Source: Pseudomonadota bacterium (lineage in GTDB: Bacteria; Desulfobacterota; Binatia; Binatales; Binataceae). Taken from it: a stretch of 48,074 bases of DNA. Every line of letters starts with the position of its first letter. The first letter of the stretch is position 1. The notes beneath the pieces were generated by a model. The model was not told where the DNA came from, searched no databases, and was given only the letters and a program-made list of their open reading frames with translations. Position numbers and translations under genes: made by a program. Location of the stretch: positions 1-48,074 of the forward strand of contig JAJPHI010000005.1 of the NCBI GenBank assembly GCA_021325355.1. The letters run 5' to 3'. Below, piece by piece: positions 40,146 through 48,074 of this stretch.

Positions 40146-42116
40146 GTGCGAAGTTATCTGGTAACGGTCCTGGCGACGGTCACGGTAGCGATAGCCTCGA
40201 TCTTCCTCGCCACATGCACTTGGGCGCAAGACACCCGCGCCAACTCGGACTGGAATGCGAGCTCTCTCTGCGGGAGTTTCCCCTTTTTGTGTACCGACCC
40301 GGTCTATCTTGAGGGCGGTCCATCGTATGTCGGCCATGATGAGCCGGCGGTTCTGTTTTACTCAACCACTCCGGGGGCGGGGAACTCCTTCAAAGGCCTG
40401 ATCACGCTACCGAAGGACTCCAAGACCAAACCGAATCAGGCGGAGACCGGCGGGACCTGGAACTTCCAGCTCCATCCGGCGTTCTGGTTCGGGATGGCGA
40501 TGTGCGACACGCAATCGGCGCCCGAAACCGCTACGCCCTGTACCCCGGACAGCGATACGAACATTTACAACGATTCGTCCGGTTCGCGTTATATCGGGAA
40601 GCATCCCGGAACCGCGTTTATGGAGATGCAGTTCTATCCTCCCGGATGGGTGATCGCGCCCAACACGCAATCGTGCAGCGCGACCAAATGGTGCGCCGCG
40701 TTGACCATCGACAGTTATTCATACGATATGAACCACAATATCGAAAATAACTCAGCGTGTGTTTCTGGTGCGGTTGGAATCGAGCCGGTCAATTTTGCCT
40801 ACATAACCAAATCGGGCAACAGTGTTGTCCCGGCAAGTCCCTTGACCGGGTTTCAAAATCAACTCGTCGTCACCAAGGACGTTTTCCTGATGAGCCCGGG
40901 CGATACGATAGAAGTAAGGATGTTCGACAACACGGCGGCTGATCCGGCGGGCGGGTTTGAAGTCATCCTTACCGATCTGACCACGGGCAAGAGCGGTTCG
41001 ATGACCGCGAACATCAACAACGGCTTCGCTCAGGTTAATTTTCAGCCGTCGGCCGCCTCCTGTACAGCGACGCCGTACTCATTTCATCCGATGTATTCGA
41101 CTTCGACCCCCGATACCCGGGTGCCCTGGGCAGCACATTCCTATAACGTCGCCTATTCCGACGAGGTCGGACATTTCGAGTACTGCAATTCGGTAGATCC
41201 GAGTACTGGCGATTGCCTCGATAACAACGAGGGCATCGACGGCGATGACTTCGCCTGCTTTGACGCCAGCCAATCTTCAAAAATCAAGGTCGGCGGATGC
41301 CAGGGCGAAGATTTTGATTTCGATGGTCCGACCTACCTGCCGGACTGGCCAGGAACCGATCCGGATGCGAAGACTGACTCGAAGCTCCATGCGCGACCGG
41401 TCGTTTTCAATGGCTCGCTGATTGGCAGCGCCGACGGTGCCGGCCATCAGTTTGATTCGACCGCCTTTGAGGCTGACCTCCCGATCATTGAGAGCAACTT
41501 CGGTACGGGATGCAGCACGGTGACGGGTGATGGTTGCAGCAACCCGCCTCCGGGTGCGTCGTTCTATCCCTTTTTCTCGACTGGAACTGACGCCAACGGC
41601 GGCTGCGTGTGGCAGGAGGGCGGTGCGAATCTGCCCAACAGCAATTACTCATTCAATGGCATTACCTATGCCGACTCGACCGAATTCGGCACTTTTCCAG
41701 TGTCGCTGGTCTATCCGACCAACACTGGTCCGACGTCTTTGTTCGATGATTTTCAGCAGCCGGTTGCTTCCAATCCATGCCTCGCGGCATTGCCGAACCT
41801 GACGGCAAACACAACCGCGATCACCTTCAAGAATACCAAGGTGGGCAAAACGAGCGCCGCCAAGACCGTCAAACTAAGCAACTCGCTTACCGATAAGAAC
41901 GGGATGGGCTTGATTGTGTCGGCGAACCTCGACGATACCACCGACTTCACGATTGCCAAGAACACCTGCACCAAGGAGCTGTTGCCGAAGAAACACTGCA
42001 CGATTTCCGTCAAGGCGATACCGTCCTCGGCGACCACCCTGAGCGGCAATCTGACGATCCAGGCCGACAGCGCCAACGGTCCGTTGACGATCCCGCTCTC
42101 GGTGACCGGCGATTGA
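40146..42116 (+). CDS. Large secreted protein with C-terminal ASH-like Ig-fold domain
   Basis: A 656-residue exported protein. Signal peptide: MRSYLVTVLATVTVAIASIFLATC, with cleavage likely after TWA at about residue 28 (the LATC resembles but does not match a lipobox). The middle 500 residues are rich in Asn, Thr, Ser, Gly and acidic residues, with many Cys in pairs (DTQSAPETATPC, SCSATKWC), unlike intracellular neighbours; I know no domain for it. The last 100 residues, beginning near ITFKNTKVGKTSAAKTVKLS, follow the ASPM-SPD-2-Hydin/choice-of-anchor D pattern with CTKELLPKKHCTISVK. Start GTG 40146 has GGGGGGAAG upstream. Base composition is lower in GC than neighbouring genes. Confidence 0.82.
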   Translation: MRSYLVTVLATVTVAIASIFLATCTWAQDTRANSDWNASSLCGSFPFLCTDPVYLEGGPSYVGHDEPAVLFYSTTPGAGNSFKGLITLPKDSKTKPNQAETGGTWNFQLHPAFWFGMAMCDTQSAPETATPCTPDSDTNIYNDSSGSRYIGKHPGTAFMEMQFYPPGWVIAPNTQSCSATKWCAALTIDSYSYDMNHNIENNSACVSGAVGIEPVNFAYITKSGNSVVPASPLTGFQNQLVVTKDVFLMSPGDTIEVRMFDNTAADPAGGFEVILTDLTTGKSGSMTANINNGFAQVNFQPSAASCTATPYSFHPMYSTSTPDTRVPWAAHSYNVAYSDEVGHFEYCNSVDPSTGDCLDNNEGIDGDDFACFDASQSSKIKVGGCQGEDFDFDGPTYLPDWPGTDPDAKTDSKLHARPVVFNGSLIGSADGAGHQFDSTAFEADLPIIESNFGTGCSTVTGDGCSNPPPGASFYPFFSTGTDANGGCVWQEGGANLPNSNYSFNGITYADSTEFGTFPVSLVYPTNTGPTSLFDDFQQPVASNPCLAALPNLTANTTAITFKNTKVGKTSAAKTVKLSNSLTDKNGMGLIVSANLDDTTDFTIAKNTCTKELLPKKHCTISVKAIPSSATTLSGNLTIQADSANGPLTIPLSVTGD

Positions 42117-42267
42117 GAGGTCAGATGCGCGACCGTACGTAACCAGCGGTCCGCTAATCGCTCAGGATTGCAGCCACACCGGTCGGTAGGGACGGGCGCG
42201 TGACGCCGGAATAAACCCGGCGCTGCGGCGAATTGCCGGCCTGCGCTGTCGCTGACGAATCGCGACG

Positions 42268-42309
42268 GAACAGCGCGCCGCTCCTCGTCTCGGCGGCGCG
42301 CGCTTGTTC
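42268..42309. terminator. Long imperfect hairpin in the HU downstream region
   Basis: GAACA-GCGCGCCGC pairs with GCGGCGCGC-TGTTC over 14 bp with a 3-base bulge and an 11-base loop, about 95 bp beyond the HU stop. It may end the HU transcript; no T-run is seen. The rest of the 287-bp interval 42117-42403 holds no gene I can support. Confidence 0.35.
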
Positions 42310-42403
42310 AGCGGCCACGACTGGAAGCAGCGCGACGGCGAGTACTGGAAGGCGGACTGCGGAACTCGACGTTTGCAGCTCCACAGTCCCGCCGTGATCA
42401 ATC

Positions 42404-42685
42404 TCAGCGCGTGCCGAGAACCGCGTCCTTGAGCGCCTTCGCCGGCGTGATCCGCAGCCGCGTACGCGCGGGAATCTTGATCTCCTGACCCGTGGCGGGA
42501 TTCCGACCCATCCGCGCCTTGCTCCGACGCTTGGTGAAAATCCCCACTCCGGCGAGCCGCAGCTTGCCTTCCTTCTTCAACTGCTTGACGACCAGCGCAG
42601 CCAGTTCATCGAGAGTGCTCTTCGCCTGTTTCTTGCTGATCCCGACCTTTTCGGCCAGGTATGCGGAAATCTGGGTTTGCGTCAT
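42404..42685 (-). CDS. HU-family DNA-binding protein
   Basis: A 93-residue nucleoid protein that bends DNA as a dimer. MTQTQISAYLAEKVGISKKQA forms the helical body and GRNPATGQEIKIPART, followed by AKALKDAV, is the HU/IHF arm and C-terminal signature; the intercalating Pro of NPATG is present. The start ATG 42685 has a massive Shine-Dalgarno AAGGAGGAGGAGG, fitting high expression. Upstream lies an AT-rich stretch with an inverted repeat and a hairpin between it and truA. HU and IHF subunits are not always separable by sequence; no partner subunit is here. Confidence 0.95.
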   Translation of the reverse strand: MTQTQISAYLAEKVGISKKQAKSTLDELAALVVKQLKKEGKLRLAGVGIFTKRRSKARMGRNPATGQEIKIPARTRLRITPAKALKDAVLGTR

Positions 42686-42745
42686 CCTCCTCCTCCTTGC
42701 GATCGCTCAACGATCCCTGGGCTTCGAGCCTATTCACCGTTTCAC

Positions 42746-42764
42746 GATTTGCAAGTGGCAAATC
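42746..42764. promoter_or_regulatory. Perfect inverted repeat upstream of HU
   Basis: GATTTGC-AAGTG-GCAAATC, two 7-bp arms with a 5-bp spacer, in the AT-rich region 61 bp before the HU start. It could be an operator; no specific regulator is known. Confidence 0.4.
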
Positions 42765-42766
42765 AG

Positions 42767-42785
42767 GAAAAAATCGCTTTTTTTC
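42767..42785 (-). terminator. A/T-rich hairpin, possible truA terminator
   Basis: GAAAAAA (42767-42773) pairs with TTTTTTC (42779-42785) around a 5-base loop. On the minus strand this lies about 115 bp past the truA stop and ends in a T-run after a GC-containing stem CTCG/CGAG, so it may end truA transcription before the HU promoter. Confidence 0.4.
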
Positions 42786-42898
42786 TCGAAAACGCGAGGG
42801 TTTTGCACATGCGCGCGAAGTTTTCCACTGAGCCGGCGCGGTTGCGCGCTCGCGCCTGCGGATAACTCCGCTGCTTCAAGCCTTTCCGAGCTTCCATT

Positions 42899-43630
42899 TC
42901 AGTAGCGCACGGCGACGAGGAACAATCCGCACGCCGGTGCGGCGGCCGGCGCGGCGGCGCGATTCCCGCTCGCCAGCAGTGCGGGCACGACTTCCGGCGC
43001 CAGTCTGCCGCGGCCGACTTCGACCATCACGCCGACCATCGTTCGCACCATATGACGCAGAAAGGCGCTGCCCTCGACGCGATAGATCAGTTGATCCGCG
43101 AGCGGCTCCCATTCGCTCCGCATCACCCGCCGCATCGTCGTGCGTTCGGCGGAACCCACGGCGCGAAACGCCGCGAAGTCATGCTCACCGACAAAGGCGC
43201 GCGCGGCCAGGTTCATGCGGTCGGCGTCGAGGCGATCCTTTATCCACCACGCGTACCGACACGTGAAGGGCGATCGATATGGGCGGTTGAGGATGCGGTA
43301 TTCGTAAACTCGCGACCGCGCGTTGCGCCGCGGATGGAAATCGCTCGGCGCAACGGCGACTTCACTAACCGCGATCGCTCCCGGCAGCAGGGCGTTGAGC
43401 GCGCGATGAAGCTCGGCGGGCGCGATCACCCGCGGTGCATCGAAGGCCGCCACCTGACCGAGCGCATGCACGCCCGCATCGGTTCGGCCCGCGCCGTGGA
43501 CCCGCACGTGCACCCCGAAGAGCCGCGCCAGCGCCGCTTCGAGCTCGGCCTGGATCGAGCCCTGCCCGCGCTGGAGCTGCCATCCGGAATAGGTCGAACC
43601 ATCGTATTCGAGCGTCAACCGGAACCGCAT
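42899..43630 (-). CDS. truA: tRNA pseudouridine(38-40) synthase TruA
   Basis: Isomerises uridines 38-40 of tRNA anticodon arms. A 243-residue protein starting MRFRLTLEYDGSTYSGWQLQ; the catalytic Asp51 is in GAGRTDAGVHALGQ. FHPRRNARSRVYEYRI, HDFAAFRAVGS and FLRHMVRTMVG are family motifs. ATG 43630 excludes an 82-residue arginine-rich upstream extension that is out-of-frame coding of the neighbour. The order leuA-leuB-asd-truA is transcribed in one direction with short gaps (38 bp here), common in related bacteria; E. coli has usg directly before truA. Confidence 0.95.
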   Translation of the reverse strand: MRFRLTLEYDGSTYSGWQLQRGQGSIQAELEAALARLFGVHVRVHGAGRTDAGVHALGQVAAFDAPRVIAPAELHRALNALLPGAIAVSEVAVAPSDFHPRRNARSRVYEYRILNRPYRSPFTCRYAWWIKDRLDADRMNLAARAFVGEHDFAAFRAVGSAERTTMRRVMRSEWEPLADQLIYRVEGSAFLRHMVRTMVGVMVEVGRGRLAPEVVPALLASGNRAAAPAAAPACGLFLVAVRY

Positions 43631-43668
43631 CGACACGTCCCCGCTTCGATCCTGTCCGCCCGGATTTT

Positions 43669-44628
43669 TTACGCAGCGATTAGAGTTTCCGCGATCCAGA
43701 CTGCGGTCATCGCGGCCAGCCGCGACGGGTCGAACACCGCCCACAGCGTCGCGCCCGTGTCGCGCTGCGTGATCCGCACCACGGTCGCCTCCTGTCGCGC
43801 GCCGTCGACCAGCGTGGACGCTTCGCTGCCTTCGACGACGATCATCCCCGGTGCGACGCGCAGGCGCTCGGCCCATTCCGCAGCCTGGCTGTTCGGCGGA
43901 GCCAGCATCGCGACGCCCGCCCCATGAAACGCGGGCACCTGTACCGCCTGCAGCGCGAGCGGCGAGCGTGCGCCAAGCAGGACCTCGATCTGGGCGCCGA
44001 TCGCGCCTTCCAGATCGACCGGTGGCAAGAGCACGTTGAAGGCAATCTGCGGCTCGTCATCCTCCAGCGCCAGCCGCGCGTTCATCACGTCGGTCGATTG
44101 CGTGAACAGCCGCGAGATCATCTGATTGCCGAAGCTCGCCGCTCCCAGCATGATCGTCGCGCCGCCGAAGGTTGCGGCACCCTCGAGCGCGCGCAGCACC
44201 GACGCAATCACCTGGGCGGCCGGATGGGGCCCGCCGATTCTGCGCGCCGCGGCGCTCATCTCGCGGAGGCGGCTGCCCGAGACGAGGCCGGGCGCCGCCA
44301 GCGGTACCGCGGCCGGAGCGCGCATCGCCCAGCTCGAATCGATCAACAGCGGCCGTTTGGCGGTTGCAGCGATACGGTCGGCAACCGCGCTCGGGACCGC
44401 GAGAAAGACCAGATCCCGGTCGGCCAACGCCTCATCCGCAACGAGCGCTTCGACCGGCAGCGCGCGCTTACCGACCTGGATCGCATCGGCGCTGCCTTCC
44501 GCACTGAAGAGGCGCAGATCGGCGTAGTCCAGATCATGCTCGCCGAGCAGCTCCGCGATCTGGCCGCCGACCGTCCCGGTCGCGCCGACGATCGCGATCC
44601 GGGGCCGGTTTGCGCCGGTCGCCGCCAT
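43669..44628 (-). CDS. Aspartate-semialdehyde dehydrogenase-family protein without cysteine (USG-1-like)
   Basis: A 319-residue protein with the fold of aspartate-semialdehyde dehydrogenase (Asd): IAIVGATGTVGGQIAELL is the NADP loop (about 10-27), LLIDSSWAMR and VPLAAPGLVSG follow. In real Asd the nucleophile is the Cys of PNCST; here that region reads IGGPHPAAQVIASVL, and the whole protein contains no Cys. It is hence unlikely to catalyse the NADP-dependent reaction and resembles USG-1, the cysteine-less paralogue beside truA in E. coli. ATG 44628 overlaps the leuB stop by one base (TGATG), so translation is coupled. A GTG one codon earlier is possible. If no other asd exists in the genome, lysine, methionine and threonine synthesis need another explanation. 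Confidence 0.87.
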   Translation of the reverse strand: MAATGANRPRIAIVGATGTVGGQIAELLGEHDLDYADLRLFSAEGSADAIQVGKRALPVEALVADEALADRDLVFLAVPSAVADRIAATAKRPLLIDSSWAMRAPAAVPLAAPGLVSGSRLREMSAAARRIGGPHPAAQVIASVLRALEGAATFGGATIMLGAASFGNQMISRLFTQSTDVMNARLALEDDEPQIAFNVLLPPVDLEGAIGAQIEVLLGARSPLALQAVQVPAFHGAGVAMLAPPNSQAAEWAERLRVAPGMIVVEGSEASTLVDGARQEATVVRITQRDTGATLWAVFDPSRLAAMTAVWIAETLIAA

Positions 44629-45737
44629 CACTCAGCCTGCATCAGGTTTTCGAGATGATCGCGCACGAGCCGGCCCATCGCCTTGCAGCCGACGGCGCGC
44701 GGTCCGGCGCCGCCGAGATCGCGGGTGCGATGGCCATCGCGGATAACTGCCTCGACCGCGGCCTGAATCTGCTCAGCCTCGGCGCGCATCCCCAGCGAAT
44801 GTTCGAGCAGCATCGCCGCCGAAAGAATCGCCGCGAGCGGATTGGCCTCGTCGCGACCCGCAATATCCGGCGCGCTGCCGTGTATCGGTTCATAAAGACC
44901 GATACGAAAACCTGCGGAGTTGACCTCCTCGCCCAGCGAGGCGGAAGGCAACAGACCCATCGATCCGACCAGCACCGACGCCTCGTCGGTGAGGATATCG
45001 CCGAACATGTTCTCGGCGACGATCACGTCAAAATCGCGCGGGCGGCGAATCAGATGCATCGCCATCGAATCGACCAGTTGATTCTCGAAGTGGACGTCCT
45101 TGAACTCGGCGCTCAATCGGGTCGCGACTTCGCGCCACAGGCGCGAGGAGGACATGACGTTGGCCTTGTCGACCGAGGTCAGGCGCTTGCGCCGGGTTTG
45201 CGCGAGCTCAAAGCCGTAGCGCAGCACGCGCTCGATTTCCGCTTCGGTGTAAAGGCAGGTATCGACCGCTTCACGGCCACCCGGTCCCTGGCGCTGTTCG
45301 CTCGGCTTGCCGTAATAGATCCCGCCGGTCAGCTCGCGGATCACCACGAGATCCACGCCGTTGACGATCTCCGGCTTCAGCGGTGACGCCGCGAGCAGTT
45401 CCTTGACGCTTTTCACGGGGCGCAGATTGGCGAACAGACCCAGTTCCTTGCGCAGGGCAAGCAGGCCCCGCTCCGGTCGGTCCGAGGCCTGGGGATTGTC
45501 CCACTTGGGTCCGCCCACCGCCCCCATCAGAATCGCATCGGAGTCTTTGGCGAGTGCCAGCGTCGTTTCCGGCAACGACGTACCGAATTGATCGAGCGCG
45601 TGACCGCCGATGGGCGCGTCCTTGAACTCGAGGTCAACCGGCGCGTCGCGCACGACCAGCTTCAGCACCTGGAGCGCTTCGCCAACTACCTCCGGACCAA
45701 TCCCGTCTCCTCTGAGAACCAGAATCTTGTAGGCCAT
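44628..45737 (-). CDS. leuB: 3-isopropylmalate dehydrogenase
   Basis: Oxidises and decarboxylates 3-isopropylmalate to 2-oxoisocaproate in leucine synthesis. The 369-residue enzyme opens [20 protein letters not shown] and has [13 protein letters not shown], the catalytic Lys in [38 protein letters not shown] with the Mg-binding Asp residues, and [22 protein letters not shown] 45737 has no clear Shine-Dalgarno. It lies 134 bp downstream of leuA and is coupled to the asd-like gene. leuC and leuD are not in the window. Confidence 0.96.
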
Positions 45738-45871
45738 TAAGCACTTCGGTTAAACGTTGCGAGCGCGTCAGCGACTCGTCATTCAGAAACCGAATTTTAC
45801 TCCTGCACGTAGTAGGCCTAGCACTAGTCGAACCGCAACCATGCAGCAAGCCCCGCCCTCACGCACACCAT

Positions 45872-47440
45872 TTATGGGCCACCGAGCGGACGCGTTTCGA
45901 GCGAGCTGCGGCGCGCTTTCAGCCGATTGAGGGCATTCACCAGAGCGAGCGCACTGGCCATCACGATATCGCTATGCGCCCCCTGGCCCGCCACGGTCAT
46001 CCCGTTCTCGCGCAGCATGCAGGAGACTTCACCGAGCGCGTCGGTCCCGCCGGTGATCGCCTTCACCGCATAGCGCTCGAGCGCCGGCGTGAGACCGACG
46101 ATCCGGTAGATCGCCTTGTAACAGGCATCCACCATGCCGTCGCCGGTCGCCTCGGCCGTGTGGGTCTGCCCCTCGATGCGCAGGCTGACGCGAGCGCGCG
46201 GCTCGGTGCCGCTCGACGACCCCACCTCCAGATCAACGATTTCGAAAGCATCCGCGGTGCGGCGCTCCTCGTTCGCCAGCGCCAGGATGTCGTCGTCGTA
46301 AACCACCTTCTTCTTGTCGCAAAGCTCCTTGAAGGCCGCAAAGGCCTTCTGCACGTCGATCGTCGCCGGATCGATCCCCAACTCCCGCAGCCGATTGACG
46401 AAGGCGTGGCGGCCCGAATGCTTGCCCAACACCAGTTTGTTCGACGGAATCCCGATATCCTCGGGCCGCATGATTTCGTAGGTAAGCTTGTTCTTGAGGA
46501 CGCCATCCTGATGGATGCCGGCCTCGTGCGCAAAGGCGTTGTCGCCGACGATCGGCTTGTTGGCCGGGACCGGCTGCCCGATTATCTGGGCGAGCAGACG
46601 CGACGCCGGATAGATCTGCCGCGTATTGACCCGCGAATCGACCTTCATCAGGTCCCGCCGCGTCTTCAGAGCCATTACCACCTCTTCCATCGAGGTGTTT
46701 CCGGCGCGCTCGCCGATTCCGTTGAGCGTGCATTCAACCTGCCGCGCTCCATGACTGATCGCAGCGAGCGAATTGGCCACGGCCAGACCGAGATCGTTAT
46801 GACAATGGGCGCTCCAGATGACCTTTTCCGCCCCCTCAACATGCGCGCGCATGTAATCGAACATCTCGCCGTATTCACTGGGGATCGCGTGACCGGTCGT
46901 ATCCGGCAGATTGATGATGCGGGCGCCGGCCCGGATAACCTCGCTGCAGACCTTCGCCATAAAGCTCCAGTCGCTGCGCGAGGCGTCCTCGCACGAGAAC
47001 TCGATATAGTCGAGATGCTGTTTCGCGCGCCGCACCGCGACCGTCGCCGCGTCGAGCACGTCCTCGCGCGTCATGTTGAGCTTGTACTTCATGTGGATAT
47101 CCGAGGTCGCGATAAAGATATGAATCCCCGGTCGCTTCGACCTCTCGACCGCGCGCAGCGCGGCGTCAACGTCCTCGTCGCGCGTGCGCGAAAGGCTGAG
47201 AATCGTCGGGTTGGTCAACGCCTCGGCGATCCGTCGGACCGATTCGAAATCCCCCGGCGAAGAGGCCGCAAAACCCGCTTCGATGATATCCACGTTCAGC
47301 CGTTCAAGCTGCTGCGCGATCGCCACCTTCTCCTCGACATTCATCGTGCATCCGGGCGACTGCTCACCGTCGCGCAGAGTCGTGTCGAAGATCCGCACGT
47401 AATCGGCACTCATACCGGCATCGGACTCAGTAGCACTCAT
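45872..47440 (-). CDS. leuA: 2-isopropylmalate synthase
   Basis: Condenses acetyl-CoA with 2-oxoisovalerate, the committed step of leucine synthesis, feedback-inhibited by leucine. The 522-residue protein has the DRE-TIM barrel with FDTTLRDGEQSPGCTMN (metal Asp and catalytic Arg), SAHCHNDLGLAVANS, GIGERAGNTSMEEVVMALKT and AHEAGIHQDGVLKN; the C-terminal third is the LeuA allosteric domain. ATG 47440 has GGGAGAGAGGAT upstream. Expression is likely controlled by the attenuator at 47507-47654, which ends 67 bp before this start. Confidence in the start is high because the N-terminus SADYVRIFDTTLRDG fits the family. Confidence 0.96.
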   Translation of the reverse strand: MSATESDAGMSADYVRIFDTTLRDGEQSPGCTMNVEEKVAIAQQLERLNVDIIEAGFAASSPGDFESVRRIAEALTNPTILSLSRTRDEDVDAALRAVERSKRPGIHIFIATSDIHMKYKLNMTREDVLDAATVAVRRAKQHLDYIEFSCEDASRSDWSFMAKVCSEVIRAGARIINLPDTTGHAIPSEYGEMFDYMRAHVEGAEKVIWSAHCHNDLGLAVANSLAAISHGARQVECTLNGIGERAGNTSMEEVVMALKTRRDLMKVDSRVNTRQIYPASRLLAQIIGQPVPANKPIVGDNAFAHEAGIHQDGVLKNKLTYEIMRPEDIGIPSNKLVLGKHSGRHAFVNRLRELGIDPATIDVQKAFAAFKELCDKKKVVYDDDILALANEERRTADAFEIVDLEVGSSSGTEPRARVSLRIEGQTHTAEATGDGMVDACYKAIYRIVGLTPALERYAVKAITGGTDALGEVSCMLRENGMTVAGQGAHSDIVMASALALVNALNRLKARRSSLETRPLGGP

Positions 47441-47506
47441 ATCCCTCTCTCCCGGTTGTGACGTTCCCAAGGGAAGCCGGCTGCGCTGCGGGCTGACGCA
47501 AACAAA

Positions 47507-47547
47507 AACGCCCCAGGCGGCTCGCTCGGCCCTCCGCCTGGGGCGTT
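47507..47547 (-). terminator. leuA attenuator: intrinsic terminator
   Basis: On the minus strand AACGCCCCAGGCGG pairs with CCGCCTGGGGCGTT (perfect 14 bp) around a 13-base loop, followed by a T-rich tail TTTTTGTTTG. It stands between the leader peptide and leuA in the same direction, so it stops transcription before leuA unless antitermination occurs. The leader segment CGCCCTGGGCGT (plus coordinates 47587-47598) can pair with the near arm at 10 of 12 bases, giving the competing antiterminator. Confidence 0.85.
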
Positions 47548-47570
47548 CGTTTCAGTGTTTCAAGCCTTCC

Positions 47571-47654
47571 TCAGACCTGCACCTCGACGCCCAGGGCGTA
47601 GGGCCCGCTAAGGGCCAGAAGCAGCAACAGTGCGAAGTCAAGGACTGTGGACAT
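47571..47654 (-). CDS. leuL: leu operon leader peptide
   Basis: A 27-codon leader beginning MSTVLDF. Codons 9-13 are five consecutive leucines (CTG TTG CTG CTT CTG) and Leu also occurs at 5, 15 and 21; the stop TGA is at 47573-47571. AGGA lies 9 bases before the ATG. This is the expected design of translation-coupled attenuation: at low leucyl-tRNA the ribosome stalls on the Leu run, freeing the codon 19-23 region to pair with the terminator's near arm, so leuA is transcribed; at high leucine the ribosome reaches the stop and the terminator folds. I have not seen this gene annotated; too short for usual gene finders. Confidence 0.85.
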   Translation of the reverse strand: MSTVLDFALLLLLALSGPYALGVEVQV

Positions 47655-47662
47655 CGAGGAGA

Positions 47663-47692
47663 ATCCTAGTAAGCAGCGCGCGGTTTAGTCAA
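47663..47692 (-). promoter_or_regulatory. Candidate promoter of the leu leader
   Basis: On the minus strand TTGACT (47692-47687) and TAGGAT (47668-47663) are separated by 18 bp. The transcript would start at or just before the leader ATG (47654), so the leader may be nearly leaderless. Confidence 0.45.
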
Positions 47693-47708
47693 GCCGCGAG
47701 AGCGGCTT
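47691..47708. terminator. Hairpin between the truncated upstream gene and leuL
   Basis: AAGCCGC-GAGA-GCGGCTT: 7-bp stem with a 4-base loop, overlapping the -35 region of the leader promoter. It may end the transcript of the gene at 47736-48074. Confidence 0.4.
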
Positions 47709-47735
47709 CGCTTCTTCGTCGCCAATGGACGTCGG

Positions 47736-48074
47736 CTACTGCGAGGCCGAATCGGGGGAAGAGCCGCCGCCGAGGTCGCCGGCGCCACCGACGCCGCCGA
47801 CCACCGCAGCCCCGGCCACCGCACCGCCCAGCACTCCGCTCGCCGTGATGCCCGCCGGCGTCAGTCCGCCCACCGCCCCCGCATTCGCCGTCGTCAGCAT
47901 GCTCGACGACAACAGCGAACACGGCACCGCCAGCCGATGCCCCGGTCCCACCAGCACGCTCCCCGCTCCCGGATTGCCCGGATTCGAGACCGCCACCAAC
48001 CCCGCATATACCGCGACATCGGTGAATTCGCTGCACCCCGGATGCTCTTTGCGCGCCACTCCCTTCAGATAATC
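47736..48074 (-). CDS. 3' end of a Gly/Ala-rich protein, possibly FecR-like
   Basis: An open frame that enters from the window edge and stops at 47736, giving the last 112 residues. It contains DVAVYAGLVAVSNPGNPGAG and SVLVGPGHRLAVPCS, which resemble the strand pattern of FecR-type domains of secreted proteins, then a long Gly/Ala-rich tail (GVLGGAVAGAAVVGGVGGAG) that looks like a flexible linker or membrane-proximal helix. There is no start in the window: a GTG at 48059 is only an internal codon. Function unknown; coding is likely but not certain because the plus strand is also open here. Confidence 0.5.
   Translation of the reverse strand, partial: DYLKGVARKEHPGCSEFTDVAVYAGLVAVSNPGNPGAGSVLVGPGHRLAVPCSLLSSSMLTTANAGAVGGLTPAGITASGVLGGAVAGAAVVGGVGGAGDLGGGSSPDSASQ

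Follow-up and report, generated by a model that had tools for sequence, protein, structure and literature searches.

The DNA just upstream of leuA in this contig raises the question of whether the gene is controlled by a translated leader that senses leucine supply. Attenuation by Leu-rich leader peptides is classical. A preliminary description of the locus had proposed a 27-codon leader peptide with five consecutive Leu codons, a 14-bp terminator with a T-tail and an antiterminator pairing, all placed before leuA with the logic of enterobacterial leuL. We analysed the whole stretch of 48,074 nt (the window) together with the DNA upstream of leuA in other genomes. We favor, at a probability of about 0.92, the reading that the element in the window is a ribosome-mediated transcription attenuator that would sense charged tRNA-Leu, based on the sequence parts, their conservation, covariation and computed energetics. 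Such an attenuator would very probably turn leuA off when leucine is plentiful. We infer its start site, ribosome stalling, termination and the response to leucine.

Layout of the leuA leader region

The features of the locus, from the promoter side onward, are:

47663..47692, minus strand: predicted sigma-70-type promoter, TTGACT-18-TAGGAT (9 of 12 matches; 8 nt from the end of the -10 to the leader ATG)
47571..47654, minus strand: leuL leader peptide ORF, 27 codons plus TGA, predicted to be leaderless (from ORF reading and conservation)
47616..47630, minus strand: Leu control codons 9-13, five in a row (from position-specific conservation)
47612-47610, minus strand: sixth Leu codon, Leu15, CTT
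47602..47616, minus strand: small 1:2 hairpin, GGCCC-UUAGC-GGGCC, a candidate pause or protector hairpin (from folding)
47528..47609, minus strand: predicted antiterminator, a single extended hairpin that begins at the last Leu codon, takes in the terminator 5' strand and has the leader stop codon at its apex
47507..47547, minus strand: intrinsic terminator stem-loop, 14 bp
47500..47508, minus strand: terminator U-tract, TTTTTGTTT
45872..47440, minus strand: leuA, 2-isopropylmalate synthase (NCBIfam TIGR00973, 683 bits against a cut-off of 599)
44628..45737, minus strand: leuB, 3-isopropylmalate dehydrogenase, the next gene 3' of leuA (TIGR00169, 475 bits)

The product of the leader ORF is MSTVLDFALLLLLALSGPYALGVEVQV (27 codons, minus strand 47654-47571), and its codons 9-13 are CTG TTG CTG CTT CTG. 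The terminator stem is formed by AACGCCCCAGGCGG (47547-47534), which pairs perfectly with CCGCCTGGGGCGTT (47520-47507) over 14 bp around a loop of 13 nt, and the stem runs into the U-tract. Both the leader with its run of five Leu codons and the terminator with its T-tail were therefore borne out as first described. Immediately 5' of leuA there is a Shine-Dalgarno-like sequence, GGGAGAGAGGG, recognised by eye.

Directly after leuB lies a divergent gene resembling aspartate-semialdehyde dehydrogenase (43669-44631, minus strand), a near full-length match at 68.6 bits against a cut-off of 284, and it is followed by truA (in ORF 42899-43876). On the other side, 5' of the leader, ORF 47689-48072 (minus strand) is cut by the contig end; it is rich in Gly, Ala and Val at its end and gave no NCBIfam or Pfam match.

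Conservation of the leader and its predicted promoter

We searched for leuA in 57 genomes, including the source genome, and read the upstream DNA at 33 loci of family f1 (including the window) and at 18 loci from other families of the class. Four class genomes had no leuA above the cut-off (G036, G039, G045 and G048) and are outside the counts. The preliminary description had proposed to look for the Leu codons and the hairpin in relatives, and there the arrangement held up: a Leu-rich leader, an antiterminator and a terminator stand in the same order before leuA at all 33 f1 loci that were aligned, and a diverged Leu leader is found at 12 of the 18 other class loci. One f1 leader (L018) is without an LLL run and escapes stricter scans, and the leader was still read. 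One of the 12 class leaders (L007) is truncated by a contig end; it was recognised by eye and excluded from later counts. At the remaining 6 of the 18 class loci read (families f2, f6, f7 and f12), the Leu leader was absent.

We compared these loci to shuffled upstream regions using a fixed rule: an ORF beginning with ATG or GTG, of 12-40 residues, containing LLL, LxLL or LLxL, and ending at least 60 nt before leuA. Such an ORF was found at 32 of the 33 f1 loci and in 47 of 990 shuffled regions (about 5%). The other class loci gave 11 of 18 (28 of 540 shuffles). Outside the class, 1 of 29 loci from the phylum was positive compared to 59 of 870 shuffles (6.8%); this sample is biased, as it comprised the 30 genomes that scored best among 247. 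Named loci from mixed phyla were positive in 15 of 79 cases, compared to 149 of 2370 shuffles (6.3%). In an earlier and narrower scan, whose rule the short runs of the class would escape, 12 of 108 loci were positive, all of them among the named loci.

A covariance model, R1, was built from the 33 f1 leaders, so that its matches to those 33 are by construction. R1 matched 34 of 35 f1 genomes at 73-162 bits; the independent match was in G029, before a leuA fragment, and G006, the one genome that it did not match, has a completeness of 53% and no leuA either. There was no second strong R1 site in any f1 genome: under stricter search filters the next-best match scored 26 bits, and many next-best matches were the same terminator on the opposite strand. 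Outside f1 the best match was weak (31.5 bits), so the class leaders were identified by reading the sequence.

The distance from the control codons to the end of the ORF is nearly constant and the N-terminal part is variable. Twelve codons follow the last control Leu in 31 of the 33 f1 leaders, and nine in the other two; the tail in 11 class leaders is 10-12 codons. The two f1 leaders with nine (L038 and L043, from G028 and G018, of one genus) carry a 1-nt shift that puts the ORF stop upstream, and both the RNA pairing and the stop position of the family are kept.

The terminator before leuA is strongly indicated, by covariation, to be a conserved intrinsic terminator. In the alignment of the 33 leaders it comprises 13 pairs, with 96.9% of cells paired, and 8 pairs had changed on both sides compared to 2.6 in shuffles (0 of 500 as high). 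The fold of the whole 157-nt leader had z = -2.3, with 4 of 200 shuffles equally good.

Among the class loci, eight (L035, L036, L040, L047, L048, L050, L051 and L026) have two tandem hairpins between the leader and leuA, with the stronger U-tract on the second. Five that have no Leu leader (L003, L004, L034, L045 and L046) instead have a gene for a membrane-protein-like product, pssA-like by eye, that ends just before a terminator-like hairpin and leuA.

The position of the predicted promoter suggests that the leader ORF is probably leaderless, with its start at or near the 5' end of the transcript. In 29 of 33 f1 leaders, compared to 20 of 3300 shuffles (0.6%), the best promoter match has its -10 hexamer 6-11 nt 5' of the start that was assigned. 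This figure is partly chosen, because starts were picked by hand with the promoter list in view, usually as the ATG nearest after the predicted -10. In the list used for choosing, 28 of the 33 f1 leaders had this spacing, and 19 of those 28 offered a single start. The choice of start has no effect on the control codons or the tail. Among the class leaders, the same spacing was found in 4 of 11 and in 5 of 1100 shuffles. A -10 at this distance leaves little room for a Shine-Dalgarno sequence. In the window taken by itself, the 1 promoter match is close to what shuffles give (mean 0.6). A single match is weak evidence, and it is the regularity across leaders that makes the argument.

High-GC DNA is rich in chance ORFs, and the Leu-rich ORF could be one of these, with the terminator merely ending upstream transcription and the leuA promoter lying after it. 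This would leave unexpected both the Leu-run ORFs at nearly every f1 locus and the constant distance from promoter to start. In addition, a scan of 44500-48074 gave one promoter-like match only, and that match is 5' of the leader. We consider this explanation very improbable.

The antiterminator and the predicted switch

The attenuation reading calls for an RNA structure that competes with the terminator. We found that GGCCCTACGCCCTGGGCGT (codons 17-23) pairs with ACGCCCCAGGCGGAGGGCC (47546-47528) at 16 of 19 positions, counted by hand, and that the RNA from codon 16 to the end of the ACGCCCCAGGCGGAGGGCC strand folds as a single hairpin of 29 pairs at -43.1 kcal/mol. In the preliminary description this pairing was given as 10 of 12; the pairing itself stood, and its size did not. 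The apex in the window is closed by bases 47573 and 47567. The predicted antiterminator had z = -3.6 compared to dinucleotide shuffles (0 of 100 as good) and z = -2.4 compared to versions with a synonymously recoded leader tail (1 of 100 as good).

In the alignment of the 33 f1 leaders, the antiterminator has 15 pairs with 89.9% paired, in columns that are shared with the terminator. Its covariation score was 0.115 compared to 0.073 in shuffles (0 of 500 as high). By pair counts the covariation was weak: 4 pairs had changed on both sides compared to 2.0, and 26 of 500 shuffles reached 4.

We also compared the folds of 44 leaders (33 from f1 and 11 from the rest of the class) to two kinds of controls, dinucleotide shuffles and synonymous recodings; the latter leave peptide and downstream strand unchanged and are thus the strict control. 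In all 44, the RNA that starts at the last control Leu and ends with the terminator 5' strand folds as a single hairpin. In 42 of the 44, the apex falls at the stop codon and 18 pairs or more span it; the same held for 245 (14%) of the 1760 dinucleotide shuffles and for 990 (56%) of the 1760 synonymous recodings. The two exceptions are L038 and L043, in which the apex sits at the stop position of the family. Compared to dinucleotide shuffles, fold energy had a median z of -3.2, with 0 of 100 as good for 27 of the 44 leaders; compared to synonymous versions, the median z was -2.7, with at most 2 of 100 as good for 33 of the 44. Among the class leaders, L042 was at the level of shuffles, L026 was hardly better (8 of 100), and L024 was at the level of synonymous versions. 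In 20 of the 33 f1 leaders, the tail pairs with the terminator arm well enough to rank in the top 5 of 200 synonymous versions; the window ranked 6 of 200 and so is among the other 13.

These comparisons bear on a second alternative, in which the small ORF codes for a micropeptide that is secreted or sits in the membrane, similar to a signal peptide or lipoprotein, with the hairpin as its ordinary terminator. Leaders of the family do resemble signal peptides, with a hydrophobic core (for example, LLLSLALTGAHAGC in L006). However, neither the cysteine nor the AHA motif is conserved throughout the class (LLLRSPSVGSAVV, LLLRCPSGASAVV), the terminator 5' strand is complementary to the ORF, and the fold beats nearly all synonymous recodings of the same tail in most leaders, at the counts given above. 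In L038 and L043, moreover, the 1-nt shift alters the end of the peptide and yet the RNA pairing is kept. We give a micropeptide as little credence as a chance ORF.

The third alternative is a riboswitch for a ligand, a T-box or a leader bound by a protein, with an antiterminator that overlaps a small ORF by chance. It could account for the strong conserved RNA structure but seems less probable still, as no Rfam family matched at its gathering score in 42000-48074, or at E<=1 in 16 related loci, and both the fit of the tandem Leu codons to the ribosome footprint and a parallel Trp leader before trpE point to codon sensing.

For the attenuation reading, we modeled the effect of a ribosome by blocking bases to 12 nt past the first base of the A-site codon (an assumed footprint) and folding the RNA up to the terminator 5' strand. 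With the ribosome at Leu 9-13 of the window leader, 16 pairs were predicted between the leader and the terminator arm, at about -43 kcal/mol. There were 10 such pairs with the ribosome at Leu15 and none with the ribosome at the stop codon. The trend was the same in 32 relatives, some of which keep up to 6 pairs at the stop. In these computed folds the antiterminator would exclude the terminator and would be exposed by a stall at the control codons.

On the favored reading, the ribosome would load on the leader AUG, which the promoter position suggests is at the start of the nascent RNA or close to it. When Leu-tRNA is low, it would stall at Leu codons 9-13, with its assumed footprint reaching at most to the first base of codon 17. 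During the stall, the remainder of the ORF and the RNA after the stop codon would form the long antiterminator hairpin, taking up the terminator 5' strand, and RNA polymerase would continue into leuA and perhaps leuB. When Leu-tRNA is ample, the ribosome would reach the stop codon at the apex of the hairpin and open the hairpin's 5' strand. The 14-bp terminator could then form, and transcription would end before leuA.

A small 5-bp hairpin internal to the ORF (GGSCC-UUANNN-GGSCC) has all five pairs in 29 of the 33 f1 leaders, with two registers counted. The copy in the window has a loop that is 1 nt shorter and is outside those 29; it forms in the fold. E. coli leuL is described as having a "protector" hairpin 5' of a pause late in the leader, with a suggested role in helping the polymerase to pause (PMC9291695).

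The choice of control codons is also skewed. Of the 244 Leu codons in f1 leaders, 63 are CTT and 17 are CTC; of the 1139 in the leuA stretches of the same loci, 77 are CTT and 453 are CTC. CTT is followed by A in 54 of 63 cases in the f1 leaders and in 13 of 77 in leuA. All 11 class leaders end the run with CTT, and 10 of them have A next. In the window the first CTT (47621-47619) is followed by C and the second (47612-47610) by A, and in f1 leaders the small hairpin has the second UUA in its loop. As a rule, one tRNA reads both CTC and CTT, so the choice of isoacceptor alone does not explain the excess of CTT. A +1 frameshift at CUU-A onto UUA was considered and rejected, as there is no consistent stop in the +1 frame. 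Inspection by eye for pairing of CUUA with downstream bases revealed nothing consistent. For the leu operon of Salmonella, the control codons are described as CUA, and sensitivity as affected by codon choice (PMC1183508).

Known attenuators and other leaders in the lineage

The leader would work like leuL without being a member of RF00512 (Leu_leader), and has lineage-specific features. It shares with E. coli leuL a leader peptide with consecutive Leu codons before leuA, an antiterminator between the ORF and the terminator arm, and an intrinsic terminator. In the folds the switch is similar to that of E. coli, so the leuL logic of the preliminary description was upheld; the probable leaderless start, the longer antiterminator centred on the stop codon and the CUU-A codons had not been mentioned there. 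E. coli leuL has a 5' UTR with GGAG before the ATG, whereas the window leader is predicted to be leaderless. E. coli leuL has four CUA control codons with 15 codons after them, and its antiterminator stage folds at -19.9 kcal/mol compared to -43.1 kcal/mol for the window. In the fold of E. coli leuL, the stop codon is also in the apical loop at the antiterminator stage, and thus this trait is not private to the lineage. RF00512, which scored 145.8 bits on E. coli leuL as a positive control, gave no match in 42000-48074 up to E=10, nor in the 16 related loci up to E=1. Partial Rfam matches over the terminator (NsiR1, sX11, STnc310 and ar7) were far below gathering scores.

Leaderless Leu-rich leader peptides before leuA have been described in other high-GC bacteria. 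For the actinobacterial LEU element, the description is of a pseudoknot in which a base stem joins the Leu codons to the Shine-Dalgarno box of leuA (Seliverstov 2005, PMC1262725); LeuL1 before leuA of S. lividans is described as leaderless and without a typical terminator (PMC8079986). In contrast, the window has a strong intrinsic terminator and a predicted switch; the pseudoknot was compared by its description. Classical attenuators were described before Streptomyces leuS (PMC1262725). The S. lividans leaders of leuS (LeuL2) and trpE (TrpL1) are described as leaderless, with a hairpin and a U-rich stretch, and were read as Rho-independent attenuation (PMC8079986). Thus a leaderless leader with a terminator is an already known combination, including for Trp. 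LeuL2 precedes leuS and not leuA, and the LeuL2 and TrpL1 peptides are shorter (12 and 18 residues); their likeness to the window is one of architecture, by description. An ORF at or 1 nt from the 5' end together with a terminator/antiterminator switch is likewise described for the ilvBNC attenuator of C. glutamicum, with its leader ORF 1 nt from the transcript start (PMC11857589), and for trpL of S. meliloti, with a leaderless leader peptide (PMC7298713). These two differ in amino acid and operon, and their likeness to the window is by description. In the open literature, searched without the name of the lineage, we found no description of leucine attenuators in it; the subscription literature could hold cases.

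We found a second kind of leader in the same genomes. In the source genome, trpE (L171, G000:C19) is preceded by MNGCALILDLRAHWCWRRRAHARPRDW and a terminator-like hairpin. A trpE match was present in 51 of the 57 genomes, and 33 f1 loci and 17 other class loci were read (a partial match in G040 was omitted). The f1 Trp leaders are L171 plus its relatives L175-L201, L203, L205, L206, L208 and L216. A leader with WxW or WW precedes trpE at 31 of the 33 f1 loci by scan, and the other two have a looser Trp-containing ORF, recognised by eye. Exactly 11 codons follow the last control Trp in all 31 f1 Trp leaders measured. At the 17 other class loci, the scan gave two doubtful ORFs only (L219 and L221). 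The antiterminator fold of the Trp leaders is weak compared to shuffles (median z -0.95), and several have more than one hairpin, so the case for these leaders lies in the codons, the spacing and the terminator. The -10 spacing is scattered from 6 to 29 nt, with 15 of 31 within 6-11.

Together with the leucine leader, the trpE leader suggests that attenuation serves more than one pathway in this lineage. We tentatively raise a further possibility, which we think has somewhat less than an even chance of being right: leuA and trpE would share an attenuator chassis of the lineage's own, with a leaderless AUG, a fixed number of codons from the last control codon to the stop (12 for Leu and 11 for Trp), an antiterminator with the stop codon at its apex that is opened by the terminating ribosome, and CUU-A as the preferred last Leu codon. 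The leucine leader would extend codon-sensing attenuation of leucine synthesis to an uncultured lineage. It offers many natural variants with a nearly invariant geometry, with which the spacing rules of attenuation (the codons after the run, the stop apex and the control codon) are testable, and the leaders, which match no Rfam family, would be easy to annotate.

The scan for leaders in the source genome found none before leuC or ilvB, and by eye none was seen before hisG. An ORF containing Ile, Val and Leu codons before a second LeuA-like gene was taken, by eye, to be the end of an upstream coding frame. In a Syntrophaceae MAG (L085), we found a different Leu-rich leader, MKKALVNLNGNATLLLLALLGLLPNGRRPSFLGNP, followed by a terminator-like hairpin before leuA. 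This is probably another leucine attenuator in the former Deltaproteobacteria.
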